Notes under the pieces: generated by a model
Database searches by the model: none
What the model was told of the DNA's origin: nothing
The model's input: the letters and a program-made list of their open reading frames with translations, nothing else
Position numbers and translations under genes: made by a program
Shown here: in pieces, positions 1-43,656 of the stretch
How positions within the stretch are numbered: position 1 is the first letter of the stretch
Layout: every line of letters starts with the position of its first letter
Source: a virus
IMG/VR virus record: IMGVR_UViG_3300010388_000195
Span: 1 to 43,656 of that record
Direction: 5' to 3' (one strand)
Length of the DNA: 43,656 bases

Positions 1-101
1 AGGTGTATGGGTAGACCCGCTTGACCCACCACCCCCCTCCCCCTGGGCGATCCCCCCCGCCGGGGTCAGCTGCCGTCCGCGCCAGTCTGGGCCGTCCAAA
101 C
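1..101. repeat. Left copy of 101-bp terminal direct repeat
   Basis: The first 25 bases are identical to 43556-43580 and the remaining 76 align without gaps to the window end (84 of 101 identical overall). The segment is C-rich (several runs of 5-7 C at 32-58), so the minus strand has G-runs able to form a quadruplex. It marks either the physical terminal redundancy of the phage or the overlap of a circular assembly. This copy is the more credible one because it keeps a normal base composition. Confidence 0.9.
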
Positions 102-175
102 TTTATTATAGAGTTCTAATAGAAATATTATATTCTCTACAGTAAATATTATATTCCACTGAAAGAATATTATAC
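102..175 (-). promoter_or_regulatory. Array of four TATAAT boxes (minus strand), 21-22 bp apart
   Basis: ATTATA occurs at 105, 127, 148 and 169 on the plus strand, which is TATAAT on the minus strand. Three of the four extend to TATAATATT. Spacing is 22, 21 and 21 bp, so all boxes lie on one face of the helix. No TTGACA-like -35 precedes them. They point left, across the terminal repeat, towards the late operon if the genome is joined end to end. Another TATAATATT lies at 1659-1667. They may be phage-specific promoters, activator sites or an unwinding element; function is inferred from position and sequence only. Confidence 0.5.
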
Positions 176-372: not shown

Positions 373-396
373 AAAAAACCCCAGTGCGACCTGGGG
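373..396 (-). terminator. Rho-independent terminator after the left-most gene
   Basis: On the minus strand CCCCAG and CTGGGG pair around a 6-base loop and are followed by TTTTTT and then GTGCCTAC. It ends the minus-strand operon whose last gene is 420-830. The stem, the T-run and the trailing GTGCCTA are shared with the terminators at 2177-2202 and 3946-3969. Confidence 0.85.
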
Positions 397-419
397 TAGT
401 GTGTTACTCTGCGGAGTGT

Positions 420-1658: not shown

Positions 1659-1667
1659 AATATTATA
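1659..1667 (-). promoter_or_regulatory. TATAATATT promoter-like box inside origin-like region
   Basis: The minus strand reads CCTTTTATAATATTG. It is the same 9-base word found three times in the left-end array (123-174) and again lacks a TTGACA-like -35 at normal spacing. It lies about 230 bases upstream of the 1425-420 gene block and is the best visible promoter candidate for it, since the terminator at 2177-2202 should block read-through from the right. Confidence 0.35.
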
Positions 1668-11666: not shown

Positions 11667-12308
11667 ATGACACACGGCACTTGGATTCCCAAGGCCGTAT
11701 TGGAACGGGTGGACATTCCTTTGTCTGCCCGTGTCCTTTACGGACTAATCGATGCCCTCGATGGTGACGAGGGATGCTATGCTTCCAACGGGTGGATCGC
11801 CACGAACCTGGCGTTGACCCCCAGACAGGTACAGAACCTCCTCAAGATGCTGGTCGATGCCGGCCTTGTGGTACGCATCGAGACCGATGGGAAACGCATC
11901 CTGCGGACGGTGGAGAAGCAAGCACTTGTGGCGCTGAAGGGGGATGCAGTCAATTTCGTCCCCCCCACGAAGCCCATTTCATCCCCCCCACGAAGTAGAC
12001 TTCGTACAGATAATACAGAGGATAACAAAGAGGATAATAATAACCCCTTACCCCTTCCTCACAGTCCTATGTTCCGTAGGGTCTGGGACGAGTGGGTTGC
12101 CTATCGTCGAGCGTCGAAGAAGAAGTTGTCGGAGTTAGCCAAGCAGAAGCAGCTCGCTATGCTGGCTGGGCTGACCGAAGCGGAAGCCATCGAGTGCATC
12201 AACCGATCCATCTCCAACGACTGGCAAGGACTGTTCCCAGAGAAGCAGAAGAACAGTAAACCCTTTTCCAAAATCTTAACCAGAGATGACCACGCCAATG
12301 GATTCTGA
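11667..12308 (+). CDS. Winged-helix replication protein, 213 aa
   Basis: The N-terminal 90 residues have a winged HTH (YASNGWIATNLALTPRQVQN then LLKMLVDAGLV), a fold used by phage replication initiators and DnaD/primosomal proteins. A Pro/Asn-rich low-complexity linker (about 110-135) leads to a C-terminal helical domain (residues 145-200) with GLTEAEAIECINRSISNDWQ, typical of DnaD-type C-termini. It is followed, with a 23-base overlap, by a helicase loader. It probably binds the origin or recruits the helicase; the origin itself is not identified here. Confidence 0.78.
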   Translation: MTHGTWIPKAVLERVDIPLSARVLYGLIDALDGDEGCYASNGWIATNLALTPRQVQNLLKMLVDAGLVVRIETDGKRILRTVEKQALVALKGDAVNFVPPTKPISSPPRSRLRTDNTEDNKEDNNNPLPLPHSPMFRRVWDEWVAYRRASKKKLSELAKQKQLAMLAGLTEAEAIECINRSISNDWQGLFPEKQKNSKPFSKILTRDDHANGF

Positions 12309-16158: not shown

Positions 16159-16622
16159 GAAACCTAAACAAGCCTCCCCGCTACAATGTAGCGAGCATCC
16201 AAGCCCAGCAGACGATGGGCGGTGATGTGATGCAAGCGGACGAGAACGGACAGTATGTCGAGTGGCGTGATTACAAACGAGCGTTGGATGAAATCGAGAT
16301 GCTCAAGCACACTATCAAGTACTGGGAGATTGAGGCGAAGACCGACAACGACAGGTGGCTGCGATGCCTTGAAGACAACGAGAAACTCAAGGCCGAGGTA
16401 GAGCGGCTGACCGCTATGGCAAACGAATGCGAACATCTTCACAAAGGGATTTACTCGCTGTCTCTCAATGTATTGCAGTTGAAAGACGAGGTCGAGCGTC
16501 TCCGCAAGGCCGGGGATGCGATGGCAAAGCGAACCGAGTTTTTTCAAAAGCGATGGGATGCAGACGAACTTTGCCAAGAGGTCGAAGCGTGGAACGCCGC
16601 CAAGGAGGGCAAGCAGTCGTGA
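16155..16622 (+). CDS. Coiled-coil protein, 155 aa
   Basis: After a polar N-terminus, residues about 38-135 show long heptad runs (YKRALDEIEMLKHTIKYWEI; LKAEVERLTAMANECEH; LKDEVERLRKAGDAMAKR), so a parallel or antiparallel coiled coil is likely. No catalytic motif. It overlaps its neighbours by 4 bases on both sides. Confidence 0.78.
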   Translation: MRNLNKPPRYNVASIQAQQTMGGDVMQADENGQYVEWRDYKRALDEIEMLKHTIKYWEIEAKTDNDRWLRCLEDNEKLKAEVERLTAMANECEHLHKGIYSLSLNVLQLKDEVERLRKAGDAMAKRTEFFQKRWDADELCQEVEAWNAAKEGKQS

Positions 16623-16954
16623 GTTCCTCCGGTCACAACACCCTTGGCTACGGCAAGACCAAGGCAGCCATCCACGAAGCCCTGGCTAAAGGGATGAACC
16701 TACGGGAAGCTGCGTCCCACTATGGCATCTCCTACGCCTCCGCATACGGTGCAGCCCACCGGGATAAACTCAAGTTCAAGCCCCACAACAACCGCGCCAA
16801 GTACGGACACGTCAAGTTGATGGTCATCTACGAGTCCCAGTCTGGCTTAACCGTGAGCCAAATTGCAAAGAAGCACGGGTTCAGTTACAGTTCTGTACGA
16901 TCTGTAAACAGAGTGTGCAGTCTTAACATCCCCCTTACACGAAAAAAGAAATGA
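16619..16954 (+). CDS. Double HTH protein, 111 aa
   Basis: Two HTH units, GMNLREAASHYGISYASAYG and GLTVSQIAKKHGFSYSSVRS, followed by a basic tail ending RKKK. Both resemble the units at 15428 and 15874. The start is GTG at 16619 (GTGA overlap with the stop of the coiled-coil gene); the open frame upstream to 16427 overlaps that gene and is not used. Confidence 0.75.
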   Translation: MSSSGHNTLGYGKTKAAIHEALAKGMNLREAASHYGISYASAYGAAHRDKLKFKPHNNRAKYGHVKLMVIYESQSGLTVSQIAKKHGFSYSSVRSVNRVCSLNIPLTRKKK

Positions 16955-19437: not shown

Positions 19438-20110
19438 TTACTTTGTCACGGGCTTTATCCCAGAGAACCCACAGACCAAACGACAAAGCGATGCCGATGG
19501 CTGTGAGGACGATGGGTAGGAAGTAGGGAGAGCCTTGGATGACCGGGATAGACCCAGCCACGGTGGACAGGAAGATGAGGGTAGCGCCAGTCTTCCACGA
19601 CAGGAAGGCACAGACGACAGCCCCCAGGACGAACATCCCGCCAGCCAGCATAGTCCAGAAATTGCGGTCAGCGTCGGTCTTGACCTTCTCCACCTCTTGG
19701 GCGAGCTGCTCGTTGCGTAGTTTAAGGGCTTTAATCTCCGCAAGATTGCGGACATTGTCGGACTCCATCTTATCCCACATCTTGTTTACTTCTGCTTGTA
19801 GACCCTTGGCGTAGGCAATCTGAGCCTTGTAAGCCTCTGGGTCGCCCTTGGAAGCCCGTTCACGGGCGAAGGCGATGTCAGCCTCAGACGGGGCAGGAAG
19901 ATAAGCCAGAGCCACCTTTCCTTCAGCCTTTACCACCTCCGGCTCGTCAGCCCTCTCCACCGCCACGGTTACGGCAGCCGCCGCCCGTGCTTCAGTGGTA
20001 TCAATCTTGTCCCCCAGTTTACTAACATTGGCTGGATCGGTAGCCGATACCGGGGGCTTGTCCGTAGTCACACAGGAAGCCAAGAAGACGATGCAGAATA
20101 GGTACTTCAT
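19406..20110 (-). CDS. Spanin-like lipoprotein with C-terminal membrane spans, 234 aa
   Basis: The N-terminus has a lipoprotein signal with canonical lipobox LASC (cysteine 13), so it would be anchored by lipid, probably in the outer membrane. Residues about 95-150 form a coiled coil (KALKLRNEQLAQEVEKVKTD). Three hydrophobic segments follow at about 151-171, 174-190 and 195-216. Outer-membrane anchor, periplasmic coil and inner-membrane spans resemble a u-spanin, which fuses the two membranes at lysis. Normal u-spanins have one C-terminal span, so this is enlarged. The gene lies next to the holin candidate. Confidence 0.6.
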   Translation of the reverse strand: MKYLFCIVFLASCVTTDKPPVSATDPANVSKLGDKIDTTEARAAAAVTVAVERADEPEVVKAEGKVALAYLPAPSEADIAFARERASKGDPEAYKAQIAYAKGLQAEVNKMWDKMESDNVRNLAEIKALKLRNEQLAQEVEKVKTDADRNFWTMLAGGMFVLGAVVCAFLSWKTGATLIFLSTVAGSIPVIQGSPYFLPIVLTAIGIALSFGLWVLWDKARDKVNESSSPSQPD

Positions 20111-23100
20111 TTGTTGCGGTAGCGATTGGCGGTCTCGGATTCGGCTTGGCGCTGGATGGTCGTCTTCTGGCTCTGGAGGTAGGTGTTGGGGGTCATCTGA
20201 CGCATCACCTCTCCCTGCAACTTCTCAGCCTCTTCCTTGGTCTTCGGGGCTTTGGAGGTTGTCTGCCCACGGAGACGCTGTTCCTGGACGAGCATATTGT
20301 TGTACATAGCCACGGCATTCTCCGTGCGGTACAGTTCCTGTCCGTTCACACCATACAGTCGGTAGACATATCTGGGCTTACCATAGTTATCCAAGCCTTG
20401 GTAGACGGCGTGGAGTTGATTGCCCAGTTCGGTCTTCCAGACATCATTGATGGCTCGCATCACTTCCTGCCCTGCTCGCATCTCACGGTTGAGATACTTG
20501 TTGAGATCGGGGGCGGCTGCACGGGCTTCTGGAGAACCAAGAGCCAAGGCTACACGGGCATTGCCTTCGGCTTGCTGGACAAGTGGGCCGGTCTGCTGTT
20601 GAGCGTTCAACGTCTGGGTGACGATGGGCTTGCGGTCAAGGATGCGACGGACGACCAATCGATTATCCCCGGCAACTGGCAAGCCAGCAGGGTCAACCCC
20701 TAGACTGCCACGCAGGATGTTGCCGATGTCAAGTTCTGGGGTATTAGAACGAAGTGCCGTAGCCAAGGCATTGGCATCCTCCACCTCACGCTCCTTTGCA
20801 CGAGTCTCGATGTCACGACGCAGTTGCTCGGCTTGCAGCTTGGCTTCATTGTCACGACGCTCCTGTTCAAGTTTCTGTTTCTCACGCAGTTTCTCGGCTG
20901 CCTCCTTGTTCTTGCGTTCTTCTTCCAACAGGCGATTCCAGTCGTCATCATACTTCTTCTTGTCCGCATCGATACGACGCTGTTCGGCTTCAATACGACG
21001 TTGTTCGGCAATCTGGTTCTTCTTGTCGATGCGAGCCTGGTTCTTGGCATCTTGATCGACTAGGCGCTGGAAGTCCGCTTCGTACTTAGCCTTTTCCTTT
21101 TCGATACGCTTTTGTTCCTTTTCGTATACGGCAAGTGCTTCGGCATCTGCCTTGGCTTGGGCTTCGGCTTGCTTCTTCCATTCCTTCTGTTGAGCCTGTG
21201 TTTCCTTGAGCAAGGCGGCTTCAGCCATTGTGCGTTCCTTCTCGACCTTCTTCCGGGCTGCTTCTTCCGTGGCATCATTGAGAGCCTTCTCACGGGCAAC
21301 ACGGGCCGCCTCATCCTTGATTACCTTCTCGGCATACTGACGGGCATCAGCCATATTCTGAGCATCAAGGATGGCATCGACGGAAGCCTTCTGAGCCTCT
21401 TCGATGGTTCGTGCGTTGTTGGGTACGTTCTCACCATCAACATAGATGTCGTACGTTCTCCCGTTGAACTCGTGAATATATGTATTCGGGATGTTCGGGT
21501 GAACGTATGATGCCGTAAGGGTGTTGGCTGGGTTAACCTTTAGGAAGTTGGCGCGAAGGCCGGCAATGACCTCCTTGCTACGCAAAGCCCAAGCACCAGG
21601 TGCCATATTGAACTGACCATAGATGGTCGCAGTCTGGGACATTTGGGTGGTAGTCCCGGTCTGGGACAACTCGCCCATCGAGGAGACGGACAGGTTCTCG
21701 TACGGGAACGCAAGACCACGGACGGCTTGATTGGTGAAGGTCGTAGGGTTGACCACGACACGCCCATTGCGAACCGTCATCCCGTGAGCAGCACGAAGAA
21801 CCGTCAAGCGAGCCTCACCACGCGCCCGATCTCCACGACCAAGGCTGATAGCGGAAGGTTCGATGATGGCACTAGCCGGAGCCTGGAGGGTGGAAGGCGA
21901 AATCGGCTCACCGCTGTTGTATCGCTGCATCCACTCGTTAGCCATCGTGTAGAACTCCTTGTCGTCGTTGAACAACTCACGGATGGTCGTCGGGTTGAGT
22001 TCACGTCCGTTGACATCCTTGAGGTAGGTGAAACTACCGTCTTCATTATAAACACGGACACCCTCGGAGAAGATGATGTTCTTGTTGTCGTGGAATGCGG
22101 TGACGTTGAAGACCTTGGTCGTGAGGTTGTTTCTCGGAGTATACAGACCCTTCTTCGTAGGGGACAGTTTCTCGTACTCGCTCTCGGAGATGACCCGGTT
22201 CGGTTCGGTGTTGTGCCAGTACTGGACTTGAGTCTCGAAGTACAGCGGGACGAACACTCGGTCAGAGACGTACTGGAAGCCGTCCTTCATATAGTAACGA
22301 CCTTCGGAATGCGTGTCCTTGCCGTGCGAGAACAGGTTCACATAGCGACCAGTGATGATAGGACGCTCGCCACCTTGCGCCATAATCTGAGCCATCATCA
22401 CCATATTGTTGCGGATGGTGTCTGGCAGACCTTGCGAATTGGCTAGTGCGTTGATTTCAGCTGCCGTTGGCTTACCCCAGATTGCCGTCTTAATTCCACC
22501 CTTTGGGCCAGCCTTATCATTCGTGAACGTAAGACCACGCTGGGACTCCGGTACATTGGTAAGCGTATCCAGGACGACTTGTGCGTGACCACCAATGACC
22601 ACGCCAACGGGAGGAAGTGTGGATGGGTTTACGACAGGCGAAGGAACAGGGGTTGTCGGAGCAGGAGCAACTGGCTGGATCGGAACTGCCGTAGGCGTAG
22701 GTGCAGGAGCAGTAGGCGTAGGTGCAGCTGGCTGAACTGGAGCAGGAGGGGGCGGTGGGATTGGAGTCCCAGCCGGAGTCTGCGTTGCTGGCTTCGGAGT
22801 AGGCGTGACAGGGGTCGGCGCTGGAGCAGTAGGGGCTGGTGTAGCGGGAGCAGGGGTAGCCGTGCCAGTAGGAGCAGGAGTAGGGGCAGGAGTGCCAGCA
22901 GGAGGCGGGTAGACACCGGGAACGATGGGTTGACCATTGTAGGTGTTAATCGTCGTAGTACCAGGTGCTGGCTGACCAGCCGTAGGTGCAGGAGTAGGAG
23001 CAGTCGGCTTGCCTTGAGGCTTGGGCGGGTCGATGCCTGGGATTGGAGTACCCGTAGATTGGTCGGTGAACCAAGGAAGACCAGCAGAGTTGAGCAACTC

Positions 23101-26100
23101 AGCCTGTTGGGTATGGTTCATCTCAGAGAAGTTTAGTTCTGTGAGACGGGGAGAACCCTTACCGCCAGTCATCCGATAGATGGCATCGTAGAGGCTATTG
23201 ACCACAGGGTCACGGACGATTTCCCCACGGCTATTTAGGAAGAAGCCACGGACAGTACCATCGGACTGCTTGATGAAACGCATCCCAGACTCACGCAGGG
23301 ACTGCACCATCGATGCTGTGTACTGACGAGGGAAGATGCCGATCTGTGGGTCGAACATCGAAGCGAACTGCAAACGCACGTTATCCGTGCTGAGTACATC
23401 GTACAGGCTACGCTCACCGACCATAATGCGACGCAGGGTATCAAACGCCCCAGAGCCACGCACATTGGTCAGACCCTTGTTCGGGCCGACACCACCGTAA
23501 CCGATGGGCTTTGTGGAGTCGATTGTAGCCATCCACCAAGCCATAGCCTCACGGGTGAAGCGTTCGATTGGCTGGCTTACGCCTGTGGACTCATACTGCT
23601 TCTGGGCGGCTGCAAGTTCATCACGGAAACGCTTACCGGCCTCAAGCGTAAGGCTGGCTGCATAGGCATCGAAGAACGCAGTGCGAGCAGCTGGGGACAT
23701 ACGACCACCCTCTGATGCAGAGTTCCACAGCACCTTGTTGAGTTGAGGGATGACGGACTTGACCGCATCGTGGTGGAGCAACGCTTCCCAGGCTTCGTGG
23801 TTGACGGTGAAAGCGTCTGCCTTGCTGATGTCGAAGTACACGCTACGAGCCTGTGGGCCGGACTCGATGTACATACCCTCACGAACCATCGTCAACTGAT
23901 TGCCAGCAGCGTTGGTACGGGTTTCTCCCTTACGGAAGGTGATGGGAGCATCGACATTCCGGGAAGCCTCCGACAACTGGGCGCGGAGTTGATTGCCTTC
24001 TGCGGAATAGACCTGGAGTTTGACGTTCTCGTTGTTGAGATCGTTCTTCAGACGCTCAAGGACTACGGATGTCTGTTTGCCAGCGGCCTTTAGGTTAGCC
24101 TCTTCAACGGAGATTTGACCGCTGATACGCTGGATGAGACCGACGGTTGCCTTGGCGCGACGCTCGGATTCGTTGACCTTGGTCTGGAGGTCATCACGCT
24201 TTACGATGTTCTGCTTCTTGGCTTCGATTTCCTTTACGCTCTTCTCGGCGTGGATTGCAGCTTGGGTAGGAGTCATACCCATTGCGATGGCTTCATCACG
24301 GATACGGGCTACATCCTTCGGGTCTGCATTGACCGTGTAGTTGGCGATCTGCATCTCCTCCGGTGTGACGGCAAAGACACGACCACCCGTGGCATCATAG
24401 GAGCGACGGAAGGAATCAGCACGACGCAGATACTCGGCAAAGTCCTTTGAGCCATTGAGCCATTCACGCACCTTGGCGGCCTGTTCTGGCTGGAGACTTT
24501 CAAGGATACCAAGTGATTCAGCGATAACATCCTTGCCACGAAGAGCCTCATTGCCCTTCTGCGTGAAGCGATTGGCTGTCTGGGTGACTCGATTGAGTCC
24601 AGACATCGAGATGGACGCAGCAGCCCCGATGCCGAAGCCTGTCCCTGCGGCTGCTTGGTCATTAGCCCAAGCCATAGTCATACCGACTGTACCACCGTGA
24701 ATCACGTCATCAATGGCTACGTGGAAACCGGCCTGTGCAGCCGCATCAAACCCGGACTCAGACATCCAGTTGAGCATATTCATCTCGGACTCGATGGCTG
24801 CTCGTTGGGCTACATCCTGCGTAAGACCAAGTTCCTTACGGGTTGCGTTCAAGGCAGACTGGATCGCAGAACCGCTGACTCGTTCTCCAGAAAATGCAGC
24901 CTTGGCAACACGACGCTGAACCTTGAAGTAAGTCTCAGCCTTAGCGCCAGCAACGGTAAGCACGTCTGGACGCATCATCCCTCCAATACCAAAGATGGCA
25001 AGACCAGCACCGTAGCCCCAGTCGCCACCCTGCACGGCACTCCAAGTTCCGATAGCACCGCCAGCAGCGACGGTAGTCCAGCCAGAGGTCAATTGGGCTG
25101 GCTGTAGTGCAATGAGGCGACGGAGAGACCATTTACCCAAGGCTCGTTCCTTACCGCCTTCAGCCATAAACTCACCCATCTTACGGACACCTTTGCCAAG
25201 AACCTCGCCAGGTGCGCCAACGATGTAGTTTCCAACGAAACCGCTGATGACACGCTTAGGGCCGGTCATACCAGGCATAGCCTTCTTGACCTCGGCGGCG
25301 TGGCTGATGGCATCTGCATTCAACTTATTAATGCGGGTGACCATATCATCCGACAGACCAGATGTGTTGATCGTGGTGCGAATCTTCTCGGATGCCTTCT
25401 TCCCTGCATTTGTAAGCATATCTTCTCCAGACTGAGATAGGCTGATGAGCATAGCCTCCTCTTCTGTGAGTGTGCGACCAGTGGCACGATACACGTCGTC
25501 GATGACCTTCGTGATGCTGTCCTTGGGGATGGACTTGTTGACGTTCTTGATTTCCGTTAGGATTGCCTTGCCCTCTTGGACAAGAGCAGCTCCACGGGCT
25601 GTGATTTCAGCGGGAAGGGTAGCCTTACCAGCCAAGCCAAGAGCCTTGCCCAACATACCCGCGCCACCAGCGACAAGGGTAATCGGGTCATAAATCATTG
25701 AAGCCTGTTCTGCCAACTTCTCGTCACCGTATGCGGTACGAGCCTCCTTCGCCCGATTGGGCATACCAAGGGCATCATACGCACGGGCTACGACATTGTC
25801 GTGAGAGCCAGTAACATTACGGTAGTTGCTCGACCAAGTCTTGATGGCTGCGTCGATTTCCTCGTCGCTCTTGTTCTCCCAGAAGTCATCCGTGAAAGCA
25901 CCGAAGGCTGCCTTTACAGCGGAGATTCCAGCACCAGCAACCTTGGTCTGACCCGTGTATCTGTCGCCAAGAGCCTCATTGATGAACAGGAACGAATTGG
26001 GGTCTGTAGAGTCGCTGACGAAGTGCTTGAAGTTGACCGTAGACTGAAGGACGCCAGAACCAAACGAAGCCAACTTCTCGAATGGCTTGCCCGGAATGAA

Positions 26101-27204
26101 AGCACCATCTTCACGGAGAGCCTGGAGTTCTGCGATTGCGGACAGGAACTCTTGGTTGCTCGGCTCGTTTGCATTCGTGTAAGCATCCAGTGTTCTCATC
26201 AACGCCTCTGAATTGCCCATACGCTGGACTTCCTTGAGGCGCTCAATCGGACGACGGGTCGCAGCGGAAGCACGGACGATTACCTGTTGAGCCTTCTCAC
26301 GCAGTGCCGAATCGTTGCGGTAACGCTGGGATAGGTACTCATCAGCACCGCTGAACGGATTGACCGCATCAACGAACCCGGCAATAGCCTCGACACCATC
26401 CTGCACGAACACGGCAGCTGCATTGAACCCGTCACCCATAATGGAGGTACTCTGGGTGGAGTGGAAGCGAGCAGCGGCTCTGAAGGCATCACGCTGTTCT
26501 TGGATGGAAAGACCCTGCAAGTAGTCCGGCCCTTGCTGTGAAACGACACGACCAACTTCAAGTTGATTGTCTACCGGGGCGATGGACTTACGGATACGCG
26601 CCACAAGGCTAGTGCCGATGGAACGCTTCTGTTCGGCATATCCAGGCTGGGTCAGTTCAGCGATAACTTCGGATGCTACGGCTGTCGGTACTTTGTTGTT
26701 AGGGTTGATGACAAACTCCTGTAGTTCGTCGTCGCTCATACCGAATGCCTTCGGATGACGAACACCCTTCAGCAAGGACTCCTCCATCTTCAACTTGGAG
26801 AACGGGAGCAACTTGTTCGCTACGATCTGGGCATTGTGTTCGGACTCCGGGATTTTGACCTTAAGCACACCCCAAGCAGCATCATTGACTTGCTTGGTAC
26901 GCTCCTCGGAGTTTGCGGACAACTGCGTGGCAGGAATGCCGAAGATAGCCATCGAGGTATCATTGTTGTAGATACCCACGCTGGTGGCTTTATCCCAGAG
27001 CCAAGAGTTCATATCACGAACACGGGTAATCTTGGTCACCTCGTATTCGGGAGTGCCTGGGATGTTCTCCGGCAACTCAGCGCCCTTGCCCATCCAGTTA
27101 CCCTTATCGTCTCTATACAACCACGGTTGGGTCGCTAGATCGATTACGGGTGCTTCTGGTTGAGGGGTTGTTGGGGCAGTGAGTGCGGGTGTTTCTTCAG
27201 CCAT
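20107..27204 (-). CDS. Giant internal virion / ejection protein candidate, 2365 aa
   Basis: Longest gene in the window. The organisation is a large N-terminal helical region (1-1380) with Gly/Ala-rich hydrophobic patches (about 710-745 and 825-865) and a ProAlaThr-rich linker (about 1385-1525). After a beta-rich region (about 1530-1900) it is followed by a long Lys/Glu/Ala coiled coil (about 1950-2150) and a polar C-terminus. Such giant proteins directly before two other virion proteins resemble podovirus internal core proteins that are injected with the DNA. I saw no intact lysozyme, protease or polymerase motif. It might also be a large polyvalent protein delivering enzymatic domains. Confidence 0.7.
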   Translation of the reverse strand: MAEETPALTAPTTPQPEAPVIDLATQPWLYRDDKGNWMGKGAELPENIPGTPEYEVTKITRVRDMNSWLWDKATSVGIYNNDTSMAIFGIPATQLSANSEERTKQVNDAAWGVLKVKIPESEHNAQIVANKLLPFSKLKMEESLLKGVRHPKAFGMSDDELQEFVINPNNKVPTAVASEVIAELTQPGYAEQKRSIGTSLVARIRKSIAPVDNQLEVGRVVSQQGPDYLQGLSIQEQRDAFRAAARFHSTQSTSIMGDGFNAAAVFVQDGVEAIAGFVDAVNPFSGADEYLSQRYRNDSALREKAQQVIVRASAATRRPIERLKEVQRMGNSEALMRTLDAYTNANEPSNQEFLSAIAELQALREDGAFIPGKPFEKLASFGSGVLQSTVNFKHFVSDSTDPNSFLFINEALGDRYTGQTKVAGAGISAVKAAFGAFTDDFWENKSDEEIDAAIKTWSSNYRNVTGSHDNVVARAYDALGMPNRAKEARTAYGDEKLAEQASMIYDPITLVAGGAGMLGKALGLAGKATLPAEITARGAALVQEGKAILTEIKNVNKSIPKDSITKVIDDVYRATGRTLTEEEAMLISLSQSGEDMLTNAGKKASEKIRTTINTSGLSDDMVTRINKLNADAISHAAEVKKAMPGMTGPKRVISGFVGNYIVGAPGEVLGKGVRKMGEFMAEGGKERALGKWSLRRLIALQPAQLTSGWTTVAAGGAIGTWSAVQGGDWGYGAGLAIFGIGGMMRPDVLTVAGAKAETYFKVQRRVAKAAFSGERVSGSAIQSALNATRKELGLTQDVAQRAAIESEMNMLNWMSESGFDAAAQAGFHVAIDDVIHGGTVGMTMAWANDQAAAGTGFGIGAAASISMSGLNRVTQTANRFTQKGNEALRGKDVIAESLGILESLQPEQAAKVREWLNGSKDFAEYLRRADSFRRSYDATGGRVFAVTPEEMQIANYTVNADPKDVARIRDEAIAMGMTPTQAAIHAEKSVKEIEAKKQNIVKRDDLQTKVNESERRAKATVGLIQRISGQISVEEANLKAAGKQTSVVLERLKNDLNNENVKLQVYSAEGNQLRAQLSEASRNVDAPITFRKGETRTNAAGNQLTMVREGMYIESGPQARSVYFDISKADAFTVNHEAWEALLHHDAVKSVIPQLNKVLWNSASEGGRMSPAARTAFFDAYAASLTLEAGKRFRDELAAAQKQYESTGVSQPIERFTREAMAWWMATIDSTKPIGYGGVGPNKGLTNVRGSGAFDTLRRIMVGERSLYDVLSTDNVRLQFASMFDPQIGIFPRQYTASMVQSLRESGMRFIKQSDGTVRGFFLNSRGEIVRDPVVNSLYDAIYRMTGGKGSPRLTELNFSEMNHTQQAELLNSAGLPWFTDQSTGTPIPGIDPPKPQGKPTAPTPAPTAGQPAPGTTTINTYNGQPIVPGVYPPPAGTPAPTPAPTGTATPAPATPAPTAPAPTPVTPTPKPATQTPAGTPIPPPPPAPVQPAAPTPTAPAPTPTAVPIQPVAPAPTTPVPSPVVNPSTLPPVGVVIGGHAQVVLDTLTNVPESQRGLTFTNDKAGPKGGIKTAIWGKPTAAEINALANSQGLPDTIRNNMVMMAQIMAQGGERPIITGRYVNLFSHGKDTHSEGRYYMKDGFQYVSDRVFVPLYFETQVQYWHNTEPNRVISESEYEKLSPTKKGLYTPRNNLTTKVFNVTAFHDNKNIIFSEGVRVYNEDGSFTYLKDVNGRELNPTTIRELFNDDKEFYTMANEWMQRYNSGEPISPSTLQAPASAIIEPSAISLGRGDRARGEARLTVLRAAHGMTVRNGRVVVNPTTFTNQAVRGLAFPYENLSVSSMGELSQTGTTTQMSQTATIYGQFNMAPGAWALRSKEVIAGLRANFLKVNPANTLTASYVHPNIPNTYIHEFNGRTYDIYVDGENVPNNARTIEEAQKASVDAILDAQNMADARQYAEKVIKDEAARVAREKALNDATEEAARKKVEKERTMAEAALLKETQAQQKEWKKQAEAQAKADAEALAVYEKEQKRIEKEKAKYEADFQRLVDQDAKNQARIDKKNQIAEQRRIEAEQRRIDADKKKYDDDWNRLLEEERKNKEAAEKLREKQKLEQERRDNEAKLQAEQLRRDIETRAKEREVEDANALATALRSNTPELDIGNILRGSLGVDPAGLPVAGDNRLVVRRILDRKPIVTQTLNAQQQTGPLVQQAEGNARVALALGSPEARAAAPDLNKYLNREMRAGQEVMRAINDVWKTELGNQLHAVYQGLDNYGKPRYVYRLYGVNGQELYRTENAVAMYNNMLVQEQRLRGQTTSKAPKTKEEAEKLQGEVMRQMTPNTYLQSQKTTIQRQAESETANRYRNK

Positions 27205-39763: not shown

Positions 39764-39954
39764 TGGGATGTTGATTTGCTTTCGATATATTGTAAAAGTG
39801 AGTCCTTATGGAAGCGGGACTGGCCTCCAAGGGTTGTATAACACCGGATACTGCCAGATTTACGCAGTTTGTCCAATTCTCGGACATTAATGCCCGTCAT
39901 TTCCTCTGCCAGCGATCTGGAGAGCAGGATTGGGTAGTCTTCCGGGTTACGCAT
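39730..39954 (-). CDS. MerR/excisionase-like HTH protein, 74 aa
   Basis: Residues about 8-50 (LLSRSLAEEMTGINVRELDK then LRKSGSIRCYTTLGG, SRFHKDSLLQYI) match a MerR/excisionase-type winged HTH. Its ATG overlaps the terminase stop (TGATG). A regulator between terminase and portal is unusual. It could be a small terminase-like DNA-recognition protein or a transcription factor; no integrase is present, so an excision function is unlikely. Confidence 0.7.
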   Translation of the reverse strand: MRNPEDYPILLSRSLAEEMTGINVRELDKLRKSGSIRCYTTLGGQSRFHKDSLLQYIESKSTSQCSPKTPDETN

Positions 39955-41564
39955 CAGTATGAGCCGCCTCCCTTGCATTTGAACGCCTGGTCGTCATATT
40001 GTTCGGGCTGAATGGTAGCCAAATACCGCAGACAGTCGATTGGGTCTTTGGATGCTCCCTTCTCACCGTCAGCGCCAGTCCACTCTCTTAAAGAGTAAAT
40101 AAGATTCTCGCAGGACTTGGCGACGTACAGTTTTGGCTCGTTGATGGGAGATAACGGCTGTCCAGGGTCGTGTGCCAGTGCGTCGTTGATGACGGACACG
40201 CCATCGTCGATGCGAATGCCTGGGGCTGGATCGAAAAACATCGGTTCTGGGTCTTCAGCCAGCAGCTCGATAAGGGAACTGCCACCTTCTTGGGTAGCAG
40301 CCTGTGTCGCCCCTGCACGGGGGTCGATACGACGTTCTTCAACGATTTCATCACCTTCAAGTTCTCGGATTAGGGCTTTATAGTCTGCGATGCCTCTTCC
40401 AGCCCCTGCTCGCTGTGCTGGGCCGGCTTTACCGTCAAGTTTGGTGTCTGGTAGCGCCCACTCACCGTAAGAAGCGTCGGGCCACTCACGATAGACGAAC
40501 CACTTGGTGCTTTCGCCCGTTCCGACTGCCCGTAGCCAAAGCATAAACCAGTTTCTCGCCCCGGCAGGGTCAACGACCATATAGTTAGTCCCTTCTTCGG
40601 GGATTTTGTCGTCGTCAATCTCATTGAGGTCACCGAAGCGTGGGAATTGAGCGCCAGCCAGTCCATCAGCCCAGCCGTAGGCTCGGATTTTCTTTTCGTA
40701 CGTGGTTTTGCCGTCCAGAGTGCGACGCAGCTCGTCGAAAGGGTTGTACGGGTTGAACTCGGAGTGAAACCAGACTACCCCGGCATCCTTACCACGGGAT
40801 TTAGCCCGATAAGGCATATGACCGTTGGGAACGCCAGGTACGTGCTGGATTTTCTGGTCAAGGATGCTGGCGACACGGCTTTCCAGCACCTTACAGCCGG
40901 AGATGTACTCCTTTACGACGTTAGTGTAGCCAGAAACCGGGGTGAAAGTGACAAGCAGCTTACCACGTCTGGTAACCACACGATATCTGAGTGTTTCGAT
41001 CCAATCCAGAGGTACAAGTTCGTCGCACCAGATGATATCGCACTCACCACCTTCAATGACTCGTTTTTCTTGGGCATAATTCATAAAATGGCATTGGCTG
41101 CCATTCGGGAAGATGAAAGTACCGTCCGAAAATCCGTTTTTCTGGGAATACTGGATGTTCGTGACGCGCCCTTTCTTCAGAGTCTTGAACTCCGGGGGGA
41201 TATACTTCCAGATTACGTTCTGTTGCATCTGGATCGACGACTGCGAGGTGGTGTGGAGACACCACACACGGGCATTCGGTGTGTTTACGAGTGCTGAAAC
41301 TACCCTTTTGGCAGCCCATTCAGTCTTACCCGCACGATTACCACCCAACACGCACAGTTCCTGGTGGGTCTTAAGGAGATTGTCCGCATCCCTCCAGTGG
41401 AACGGCTCGTAACCGTGGCGATATGGGTCAGTTTTTTCGGCAAGAATCTTTTCCTCACGGATACGCAGTACTTCTGCGAGTTTTTCAGAACCCAGTTTCT
41501 GCTGAAGTACCTTCAACTCCTCCGTCGAGGGGAGTTTGATGACTGGATGCTGGGTGAGTTTCAC
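39954..41564 (-). CDS. terL: Terminase large subunit, 536 aa
   Basis: Packaging motor. Walker A GGNRAGKT (residues 74-81), Walker B DIIWCDE (176-182) and a nuclease-domain motif MVVDPAGARNWF with Asp332 are all present; a C-terminal acidic patch completes the RNase H-like nuclease. The start is GTG at 41564, whose GTGA overlaps the upstream stop; TTG at 41567 is an in-frame alternative. No small terminase subunit is recognised with certainty. Confidence 0.92.
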   Translation of the reverse strand: MKLTQHPVIKLPSTEELKVLQQKLGSEKLAEVLRIREEKILAEKTDPYRHGYEPFHWRDADNLLKTHQELCVLGGNRAGKTEWAAKRVVSALVNTPNARVWCLHTTSQSSIQMQQNVIWKYIPPEFKTLKKGRVTNIQYSQKNGFSDGTFIFPNGSQCHFMNYAQEKRVIEGGECDIIWCDELVPLDWIETLRYRVVTRRGKLLVTFTPVSGYTNVVKEYISGCKVLESRVASILDQKIQHVPGVPNGHMPYRAKSRGKDAGVVWFHSEFNPYNPFDELRRTLDGKTTYEKKIRAYGWADGLAGAQFPRFGDLNEIDDDKIPEEGTNYMVVDPAGARNWFMLWLRAVGTGESTKWFVYREWPDASYGEWALPDTKLDGKAGPAQRAGAGRGIADYKALIRELEGDEIVEERRIDPRAGATQAATQEGGSSLIELLAEDPEPMFFDPAPGIRIDDGVSVINDALAHDPGQPLSPINEPKLYVAKSCENLIYSLREWTGADGEKGASKDPIDCLRYLATIQPEQYDDQAFKCKGGGSY

Positions 41565-41806
41565 CAAGCCTTACAAGACCAGTATCTCGGAGTAGTCTTG
41601 TCCTTGGCGGTGGCGCAGTTGTGCCTTGCCCGGAAACTCTTCCGTCGTGCAGGGATGTTCTTCTTGATCGTCATATTCGGGTCACCGAAACGGACGATCT
41701 TGGCGTTGCCGTTAGCACCCTTGACGTAGACGGCAGACTTCTTCGGGCCGCCTGGAGTGCGGAATGGCTTGTTGAGCGATACGCTTCGACCTTTGTAGTT
41801 TGCCAT
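41561..41806 (-). CDS. Small basic conserved-type phage protein, 81 aa
   Basis: Very basic protein: SVSLNKPFRTPGGPKKSAVY and FGDPNMTIKKNIPARRKSFR. The pattern NKPFRTPGG and GDPNM and RRKSFRARHNC appears, as far as I recall, in small proteins of many marine and podo-like phages next to terminase or head genes, with no assigned role. It overlaps terL by 4 bases. Confidence 0.7.
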   Translation of the reverse strand: MANYKGRSVSLNKPFRTPGGPKKSAVYVKGANGNAKIVRFGDPNMTIKKNIPARRKSFRARHNCATAKDKTTPRYWSCKAW

Positions 41807-42096: not shown

Positions 42097-42122
42097 GTAG
42101 TCCACCTTATTAACAGTAAATG

Positions 42123-42194
42123 AGCCTTGGGTCGGAGTCGAACCGACAACCCCATGTTTACAAAACAGGCGCACTGCCATTGTGCTACCAAGGC
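42123..42194 (-). tRNA. tRNA-Thr (anticodon UGU)
   Basis: The 72-base sequence folds into a cloverleaf: acceptor GCCTTGG/CCAAGGC (7 pairs), D stem GCAC/GTGC, anticodon loop TTTGTAA with anticodon TGT, and T stem GTCGG/CCGAC with loop TTCGACT. The anticodon stem has one C-T mismatch. CCA is not encoded. It would supply ACA-reading tRNA to help late-gene translation. Confidence 0.88.
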
Positions 42195-42550: not shown

Positions 42551-42835
42551 TCAAGCATCCCATTCCGTGGCATTCTCTGGCCCACTCTCCAGGGCTACTA
42601 CCCCGGCTGCAAGAGCAGCTCCCAGTACCGTATGGAAGTTCTCTTTACTGTTGCCACCCCCAAAAGCCAAGACCTTCCACTTGTCCGAAGTCGAGTTCAA
42701 GATAATCACCCCCTGCGGACAATACCCCTTCAACTTGGTCAACGCATCCAGCATCGCCCCTTCCAGCTGCTCGTCGTTGTGGGTAACGACCATAGCCTTA
42801 GCCTTACGCTTCCGCTTCTTCGGCTTGTCGTCCAT
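42551..42835 (-). CDS. Hypothetical protein with basic N-terminus, 94 aa
   Basis: The first 15 residues are Lys/Arg-rich (MDDKPKKRKRKAKAMVVTHN), followed by a compact alpha/beta protein (GVIILNSTSDKWKVLAFGGG) with Gly-Gly-rich turns. The ATG at 42835 overlaps the preceding stop (TAATG). Second gene of the late operon; role unknown, possibly nucleic-acid binding. Confidence 0.7.
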   Translation of the reverse strand: MDDKPKKRKRKAKAMVVTHNDEQLEGAMLDALTKLKGYCPQGVIILNSTSDKWKVLAFGGGNSKENFHTVLGAALAAGVVALESGPENATEWDA

Positions 42836-43275
42836 TACCAGCGCCCCCCAAATCGTGGATGCTTCGCCGCCACCCAGCGACCCCCATCCGATCTCAACGG
42901 CACTCGCATACCCACCACAAAGTTCCGGCTGTCCTTGACCAAGACGTTAGCCTCCACCTTGACCTTATCATACTCCACATCGCACAGGATAATCCGGTTG
43001 TTCTTAAACTTGCCCTTCACAATCCCGAAGACCTCCTTCGGCTTCTCCAAACTCCTATCCAGGTCGCCTTGCAGCTCACCCAGGTCAGCGCCCTTACTCA
43101 ACGCCCCAACCCCAGCCTCCGTCCAGCCAACAGCCCATAACTTCTTAGGCCGGTTGCTAGGCACTCTCACCCAATGCTTCCCCTCCTCAAGCCTACCTCG
43201 CCATTCCTTCATCTCCTCCTTACTCAGCCCAGTAAGCCGAATTACCTCCGCTTCCTTGATAATCTTGATGTCCAT
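42835..43275 (-). CDS. First late-operon gene, putative DNA-binding protein, 146 aa
   Basis: N-terminal helical segment EAEVIRLTGLSKEEMKEWRG resembles an HTH; the remainder is beta-rich and basic. It is the first gene after the late promoter region and could be a late regulator or a small terminase subunit, given that no TerS is otherwise seen. An upstream TTG at 43281 would add two residues. The leader has little SD character. Confidence 0.68.
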   Translation of the reverse strand: MDIKIIKEAEVIRLTGLSKEEMKEWRGRLEEGKHWVRVPSNRPKKLWAVGWTEAGVGALSKGADLGELQGDLDRSLEKPKEVFGIVKGKFKNNRIILCDVEYDKVKVEANVLVKDSRNFVVGMRVPLRSDGGRWVAAKHPRFGGRW

Positions 43276-43285
43276 ATCCAACGAT

Positions 43286-43373
43286 CTAACCTTAAGTTAG
43301 GACTTCGTCAACTTGTCTCCCAGAGGTTATCTCTCCGCTTCTCTACGAGAATAACCCCTTCCCCCGCTGGGGG
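43286..43373. repeat. Leader hairpins and palindrome of late operon
   Basis: CTAAC-CTTAA-GTTAG (43286-43300) is a 15-base palindrome immediately upstream of the first late gene. GGTTATCTC pairs imperfectly with GAGAATAACC (about 43325-43356). CCCCC-GCT-GGGGG (43361-43373) is a tight hairpin. These may bind a regulator or form leader structure. Confidence 0.5.
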
Positions 43374-43424
43374 ACTGAGGGGGGAGACAGGGGATTATTA
43401 AGGGGGGACGATACATCCTGTCAA
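43369..43424 (-). promoter_or_regulatory. Late promoter candidate overlapping a G-quadruplex motif
   Basis: On the minus strand a perfect TTGACA (43419-43424) precedes TAATAAT (43394-43400) at 18-19 bases spacing. The plus (template) strand between has four G-runs: GGGGG (43369), GGGGGG (43379), GGGG (43390) and GGGGGG (43402) with loops of 5, 5 and 8. A quadruplex in the template would affect initiation or early elongation. It is the best visible promoter for the late operon. Confidence 0.5.
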
Positions 43425-43555
43425 ACCAGCCAACCACTATCCAATGACCTATTAGATTCCCTTATACCATACATAAGACTACCTCATAGCCTATCAATAT
43501 ACCACTCCATAAGATACTCCACTGGACTCCATAAGACAGGCTTATTGCAGAAAAA
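43425..43555. repeat. Late-operon upstream region with ACTCCATAAGA direct repeats
   Basis: ACTCCATAAGA occurs at 43504-43514 and 43526-43536, exactly 22 bp apart, and a related CATAAGAC word at about 43472. The stretch holds no gene and is A+T-richer than its neighbours. The 22-bp spacing equals that of the ATTATA boxes at 102-175, just across the terminal repeat. Confidence 0.55.
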
Positions 43556-43656
43556 AGGTGTATGGGTAGACCCGCTTGACCCCCCCCCCCCCGCCCCCGG
43601 GGCGCTCCCCCCCGCCGGGGGCCGCGGCCGGGCGCGCCCGGCGGGGCCGGGCCACC
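43556..43656. repeat. Right, degraded copy of 101-bp terminal repeat
   Basis: Aligns gap-free to 1-101. Of 17 differences, seven are A to C and eight are T to G relative to the left copy; none goes the other way. This bias and the extreme G+C content suggest sequencing error at a contig end rather than real divergence. It should not be used as biological sequence. Confidence 0.85.

Follow-up and report, generated by a model that had tools for sequence, protein, structure and literature searches.

The described systems closest to the locus reported here include phage late promoters of two types. In the T4 type the element TATAAATA spans -13 to -6 (PMC1524935), and in the lambda type a sigma-dependent pause occurs at a -10-like element at about +1 to +6, the corresponding position for AlpA being -1 to +5 (PMC9371919 and PMC4604602). 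We analysed a window of 43,656 nucleotides ('the window' is this whole stretch) from a bacterial virus of an uncultured lineage. Among 50,697 phage records, just two match its terminase, at best with 30.5% identity, and Verrucomicrobiota are possible hosts (two MAG matches).

The ends of the window overlap (86% identity between 1-94 and 43556-43649), which closes the record into a circle of about 43555 bp and makes 43556-43577 identical in origin to 1-22. Since the ends overlap and the array region of the relatives continues unbroken into the late genes, the array sits upstream of the late operon. A sequence-only reading had made the array, on the minus strand, point to that operon provided that the ends are joined across a genome junction; the joining and the direction were both borne out, and the junction itself is an assembly break. 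The last ~70 bases of the window seem to be a G/C run that was poorly read. This run by the core (28-68, 43556-43649) seems to defeat assembly: several relatives' contigs end at it, and the window's own right end is garbled. Read on the late strand, the order is upstream terminator, dyads, array, G-run, core, TTGACA site, C/G hairpin and first late gene, and the terminase and head genes come next on the same strand. The features are as follows:

378-397, minus strand: intrinsic terminator closing the upstream operon (scan; same place in relatives)
201-278, no strand assigned: dyad repeats of the type YCAYTAC-N5-GTARTGA with a period of ~24 bp, candidate operators directly upstream of the array
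102-175, minus strand: phased array of four TATAATA boxes (sequence, shuffles, stability)
28-68, minus strand: G-run block in the minus-strand reading, beside the core in relatives, where assembly breaks
43541-43577, minus strand: conserved core AGCGGGTnnACCC...TTTTTnTGCAATAAG, kept in relatives, for which TGCAATAAG served as the selection criterion
43394-43424, minus strand: promoter-like TTGACA (43419-43424) and AATAAT (43394-43399), from a sigma-70 consensus scan
43355-43384, minus strand: conserved leader hairpin CCCCCCTCAGTCCCCC-GGGGGAAGGGG (RNAalifold; relatives)
42835-43275, minus strand: first late-operon gene, encoding a 146-aa protein with a predicted winged HTH and a beta-rich domain (predicted structure, weak matches)
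39954-41567, minus strand: terminase large subunit (sequence matches), the query for relatives
1659-1667, minus strand: single TATAATATT in a second regulatory region, a place shared with L051
1724-1730, plus strand: divergent TATAATA partner, 63 bp from the 1659-1667 copy, also in L051, with a similar site in L010

The terminator had been claimed at 373-396 and is indeed present. Dyads of a similar type were found by pattern search in L003, L004, L007, L011, L051 and L112; the same search gave no match in L009, L010 and L014. Scans revealed no intrinsic terminator on the late strand between the array and the first late ORF, and that interval holds no late-strand ORF of at least 60 aa. The model of the 146-aa protein has a mean pLDDT of 75.9 and a pTM of 0.43. 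Its structure matches are weak (excisionase and OB-type domains, none at E <= 0.001), and comparison of its family with the sequences of solved structures gave nothing convincing (best E 0.01); on the predicted fold, the roles of regulator and of small terminase are both conceivable. A tRNA-Thr(TGT) (42122-42194) separates the leader genes from the terminase; it is the sole match to Rfam, and ARAGORN also found it in 10 of the 12 relatives' loci scanned (three tRNAs in L105). The late operon further encodes a 2365-aa protein (20107-27204) with no PHROG match.

On the minus strand of the full window, TATAAT was confirmed at 169-174, 148-153, 127-132 and 105-110, that is with spacings of 21, 21 and 22 bp in the order of transcription, as the sequence-only reading had described; the first three boxes are TATAATATT and the last is TATAATAAA. 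With the additional copy at 1659-1667, which had also been pointed out and is present, the window contains 4 copies of TATAATATT, where 0.08 would be expected. Dinucleotide-preserving shuffles of the same 120 bp reached neither four TATAAT (0/2000) nor two 21-bp gaps (0/2000), so the excess of boxes is not a by-product of AT richness. No other 75 bp of the circularised genome are as unstable as those of the array (99-173), and the same holds in 8 of 9 distinct relatives' loci.

As -10 elements the boxes are four exact matches to the sigma-70 hexamer. The boxes that start at 174, 153, 132 and 110 reach best -35 scores of 4, 3, 2 and 3 out of 6, respectively; the array has neither a sigma-70-grade -35 at 15-19 bp nor an extended -10, and no TGn precedes the boxes. 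The absence of a -35, as first proposed, is not strict, since a TGCACA lies 17 bp from the box furthest upstream (10/12 matches), but TGCACA is not kept in relatives. The array is probably a cluster of RNA polymerase start sites, judging by its sequence.

An invariant TATAATA without a -35 resembles T4 TATAAATA, and the sequence-only reading had drawn this likeness; the array would then be a T4-late-type promoter read by a sigma-like factor of the phage. A T4-type reading was not supported. Every late-strand box is TATAATA, which departs from the TATAAATA consensus, and a six-frame search of the genome with Pfam sigma region 2 (PF04542) and region 4 (PF04545) gave no match, albeit a strongly diverged factor could escape it. 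Neither a sigma nor a clamp family appears among the PHROG matches of the scanned proteins. A two-HTH protein (16427-16954) matched sigma region 4 below threshold only and, weakly, a 'late transcriptional activator' family. We regard a T4-type promoter as highly improbable.

Relatives were collected with the terminase, the best 80 of the 108 loci found being kept. The TGCAATAAG core and two further searches provided 33 loci with the core aligned (this genome included), of which 28 have at least 100 bp upstream. L080, with a chance TGCAATAAG, was dropped before the counts; L086 repeats the L014 sequence and was left out of motif counts, L045 repeats L043 within the region, and L006, L017 and L027 have too little upstream DNA for an array call. 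Matches to the core pattern in L088, L090, L095, L096, L097, L108 and L109 were rejected, as they have only the pattern in common; their gap is longer and their surroundings differ.

The array was found in 11 rows, 10 of them distinct (this genome, L003, L004, L007, L009, L010, L011, L014, L051 and L112), and is absent from the remaining 17 of the 28 loci, 15 of which also lack a -10-like box at its position. Terminase identity is 89-97% for the carriers where given, whereas L012 (88%), L018 (87%) and loci of lower identity are without the array, which places a sharp boundary inside one lineage. Judged from these sequences, the array is a real, clade-specific control element, since the close relatives keep it and the more distant ones do not have it. 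The sequence-only reading had staked itself on conservation of the boxes or of their spacing; both the boxes and the 21-bp spacing are kept in the nearest relatives, but not in the 17 others. A lineage-wide late promoter was rejected, because these 17 (with enough upstream DNA) retain the core and the late genes. When the 361 bp upstream region was searched against the records of ten relatives, the array was its best-conserved part in comparison to L003, L007 and L112 (94%, 91% and 94% over 32 bp); against L051, however, 173 bp lying upstream of the array matched best. Among viral contigs, two matches to a strict three-box pattern were set aside as unrelated: L083, which lies in ordinary AT-rich sequence, and L084. 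The latter is an AT-rich, apparently unrelated 46.7-kb virus whose contig start (1-110) carries three TATAATATT in 20-bp tandem units.

Over the ten arrays, which come from related genomes and are thus non-independent samples, late-strand TATAAT occurs 34 times; it is TATAATA in 34/34 cases and is followed by two further A/T bases in 33. The boxes are arranged as 21-bp doublets: gaps of 21 bp account for 14 of 24, the others being 26 (four times) and 27, 28, 23, 22, 13 and 8 bp (once each). Against these 34 forward boxes stand 8 reverse TATAATA (4 in L010, 2 in L009, 1 each in L014 and L051). Forward orientation predominates in 8 of the 10 arrays; L010 has four boxes reversed and one forward, and L009 two of each. 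In L010 and L009 the TATAAT count is not above that of shuffles (907 and 109 of 2000, respectively), and a perfect palindrome, TATAATATTATA, is found in L009 and L014. The earlier idea of a phage-specific promoter or activator site fares unevenly: the motif is longer than the -10 hexamer, which is expected of a sequence recognised specifically, but its direction is mixed in L009 and mostly reversed in L010.

The same data bear on a non-promoter function, namely a multi-site platform for a phage DNA-binding protein (a regulator, or the small terminase at a packaging site), which boxes two helical turns apart would load on one face. A motif longer than the -10 hexamer fits this, as does mixed orientation in L009 and L010 where several boxes are still 21-23 bp apart, and the palindrome suits a dimeric protein better than RNA polymerase; moreover, the first late gene encodes the predicted winged-HTH protein and the array region lies upstream of the terminase gene. 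However, forward boxes predominate in most arrays, and an arbitrary protein site has no reason to be exactly TATAAT. For packaging, no cut site is visible, as the relatives' contig ends do not fall on one base. A reading of the ends as cos ends is not supported, since their positions vary and several are garbled G/C runs; they scatter around the G-run in a manner that resembles assembly failure. Such a platform appears rather unlikely, albeit a serious competitor to the cluster of start sites.

Iteron plus AT-rich origins are exemplified by lambda ori and RK2 oriV, and the dyads together with the AT-rich array could form such an origin, the array being the DNA-unwinding element. The repeats adjoin the least stable 75 bp of the genome, and the G-run adjoins the array as well. 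Yet the gene for an O-like initiator has 23-bp repeats of its own (TTCGT/TTCAT-C7-ACGAA), with AT-rich DNA after them, which makes an origin at the array less likely, and GC skew tracks gene direction and so gives no pointer to the array. These C-run dyads and the AT-rich stretch (11948-12046, within the O-like gene) have a lambda-type origin layout. Dyads of the O-gene type occur in 3 of 8 relatives examined (L121-L123), all array-bearing; L125 has one match with shorter spacing, outside the O-like gene. On balance an origin at the array, the other main competitor, is quite unlikely.

Downstream of the array lies a more conventional promoter candidate. The TTGACA-19-AATAAT site is the best of 191 hexamer-pair candidates in the circularised genome (11/12, with a 19-bp spacer), and TTGACW is found downstream of the array position in 33/33 leaders. 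In 20 of these TTARTAAT follows 17-18 bp after TTGACW; there is no good -10 in the other 13, so the site too is a candidate promoter only. From its sequence, it is nevertheless likelier than the array to be the basal late promoter. The leader hairpin is supported by RNAalifold z-scores of about -4 to -5 in sub-regions that contain it, whereas the stretch upstream gave z between +0.7 and -2.0, with little folding signal (rows L045, L086, L027, L006, L017 and L105 were left out of the fold). On the simplest reading, the basal leader transcript would start near 43390, after TTAATAAT. A dependence of late transcription on the array is not supported, given TTGACW in every leader examined and the 17/17 array-free relatives that do without it.

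TATAATA also stands as a single box without a -35 in the second control region, here as in L051 and, partly, in L010. A large imperfect inverted repeat with its centre near 1762 makes up this region (1542-1982); it has arms perfect over 23 bp (1579-1601/1923-1945) and two more arm pairs, and 42-bp repeats with dyads lie inside it at 1733-1852.

The exact consensus, the direction and the place of the array, together with the same -35-less TATAATA in the 1659-1730 region, lead us to favour, tentatively and at somewhat less than even confidence, a clade-specific, -35-less, regulated -10 cluster for the late operon, added to the basal promoter. Host RNA polymerase would use TATAATA plus two A/T bases as start or pause sites for late-operon transcription, beside the basal promoter nearer to the first late gene. 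Because the array is without a -35, we infer the need for a regulator; a phage protein bound to the dyad repeats just upstream may assist RNA polymerase there. The 21-bp spacing could allow polymerases or sigma-dependent pauses to line up on one face of the DNA. Two forms can be envisaged. Transcription may start at more than one box, or it may start once and then undergo sigma-dependent pausing at the boxes that follow; by arithmetic, the second box would occupy about +9 to +14 as counted from the first start. Against the -10 cluster stand the better consensus promoter downstream, the reversed or mixed orientation in L010 and L009, which is awkward for a directional promoter, and the invariant A after the hexamer, which is not a sigma-70 requirement.

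In an unlikely but more distinctive version, 21-bp doublets of TATAATAWW would serve late control as a motif peculiar to the phage and without a -35. It would be read via a regulator that resembles neither the known sigma factors nor Q (for example the dyad-binding protein, or the winged-HTH protein of the first late gene), the module being gained or lost in one lineage over the fixed core. No Q antiterminator was seen among the PHROG matches, many genes having no match at all.

Compared with described systems, iteron origins (lambda ori, RK2 oriV) are similar in that ~24-bp repeats lie here beside AT-rich repeats; the lambda-like repeat block of this genome, however, is within the O-like gene instead. 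T4-type late promoters (TATAAATA) likewise offer a short AT-rich -10-only motif for late genes, whereas here it is TATAATA, in a tandem array at one locus of a genome with no sigma region 2/4 match. Like the lambdoid Q and AlpA systems (PMC9371919 and PMC4604602), the array has further -10-like boxes after a -10-type box, in what would be initially transcribed DNA ahead of the late operon. The known cases have a -35 and a downstream terminator, while the array has no conserved -35 and a 21-bp spacing, and scans found no terminator before the late genes, which argues against the antitermination half of a lambda-type model. The parts of the array are familiar. Their variant use here, as a phased -35-less clade-specific module over a fixed core, was not found in a limited search of open-access literature, which is weak evidence of absence. 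If the proposal is true, such an array coming and going over a fixed core would show how a promoter module is added or swapped by a phage, and the conserved leader is a specific place at which late control can be tested.
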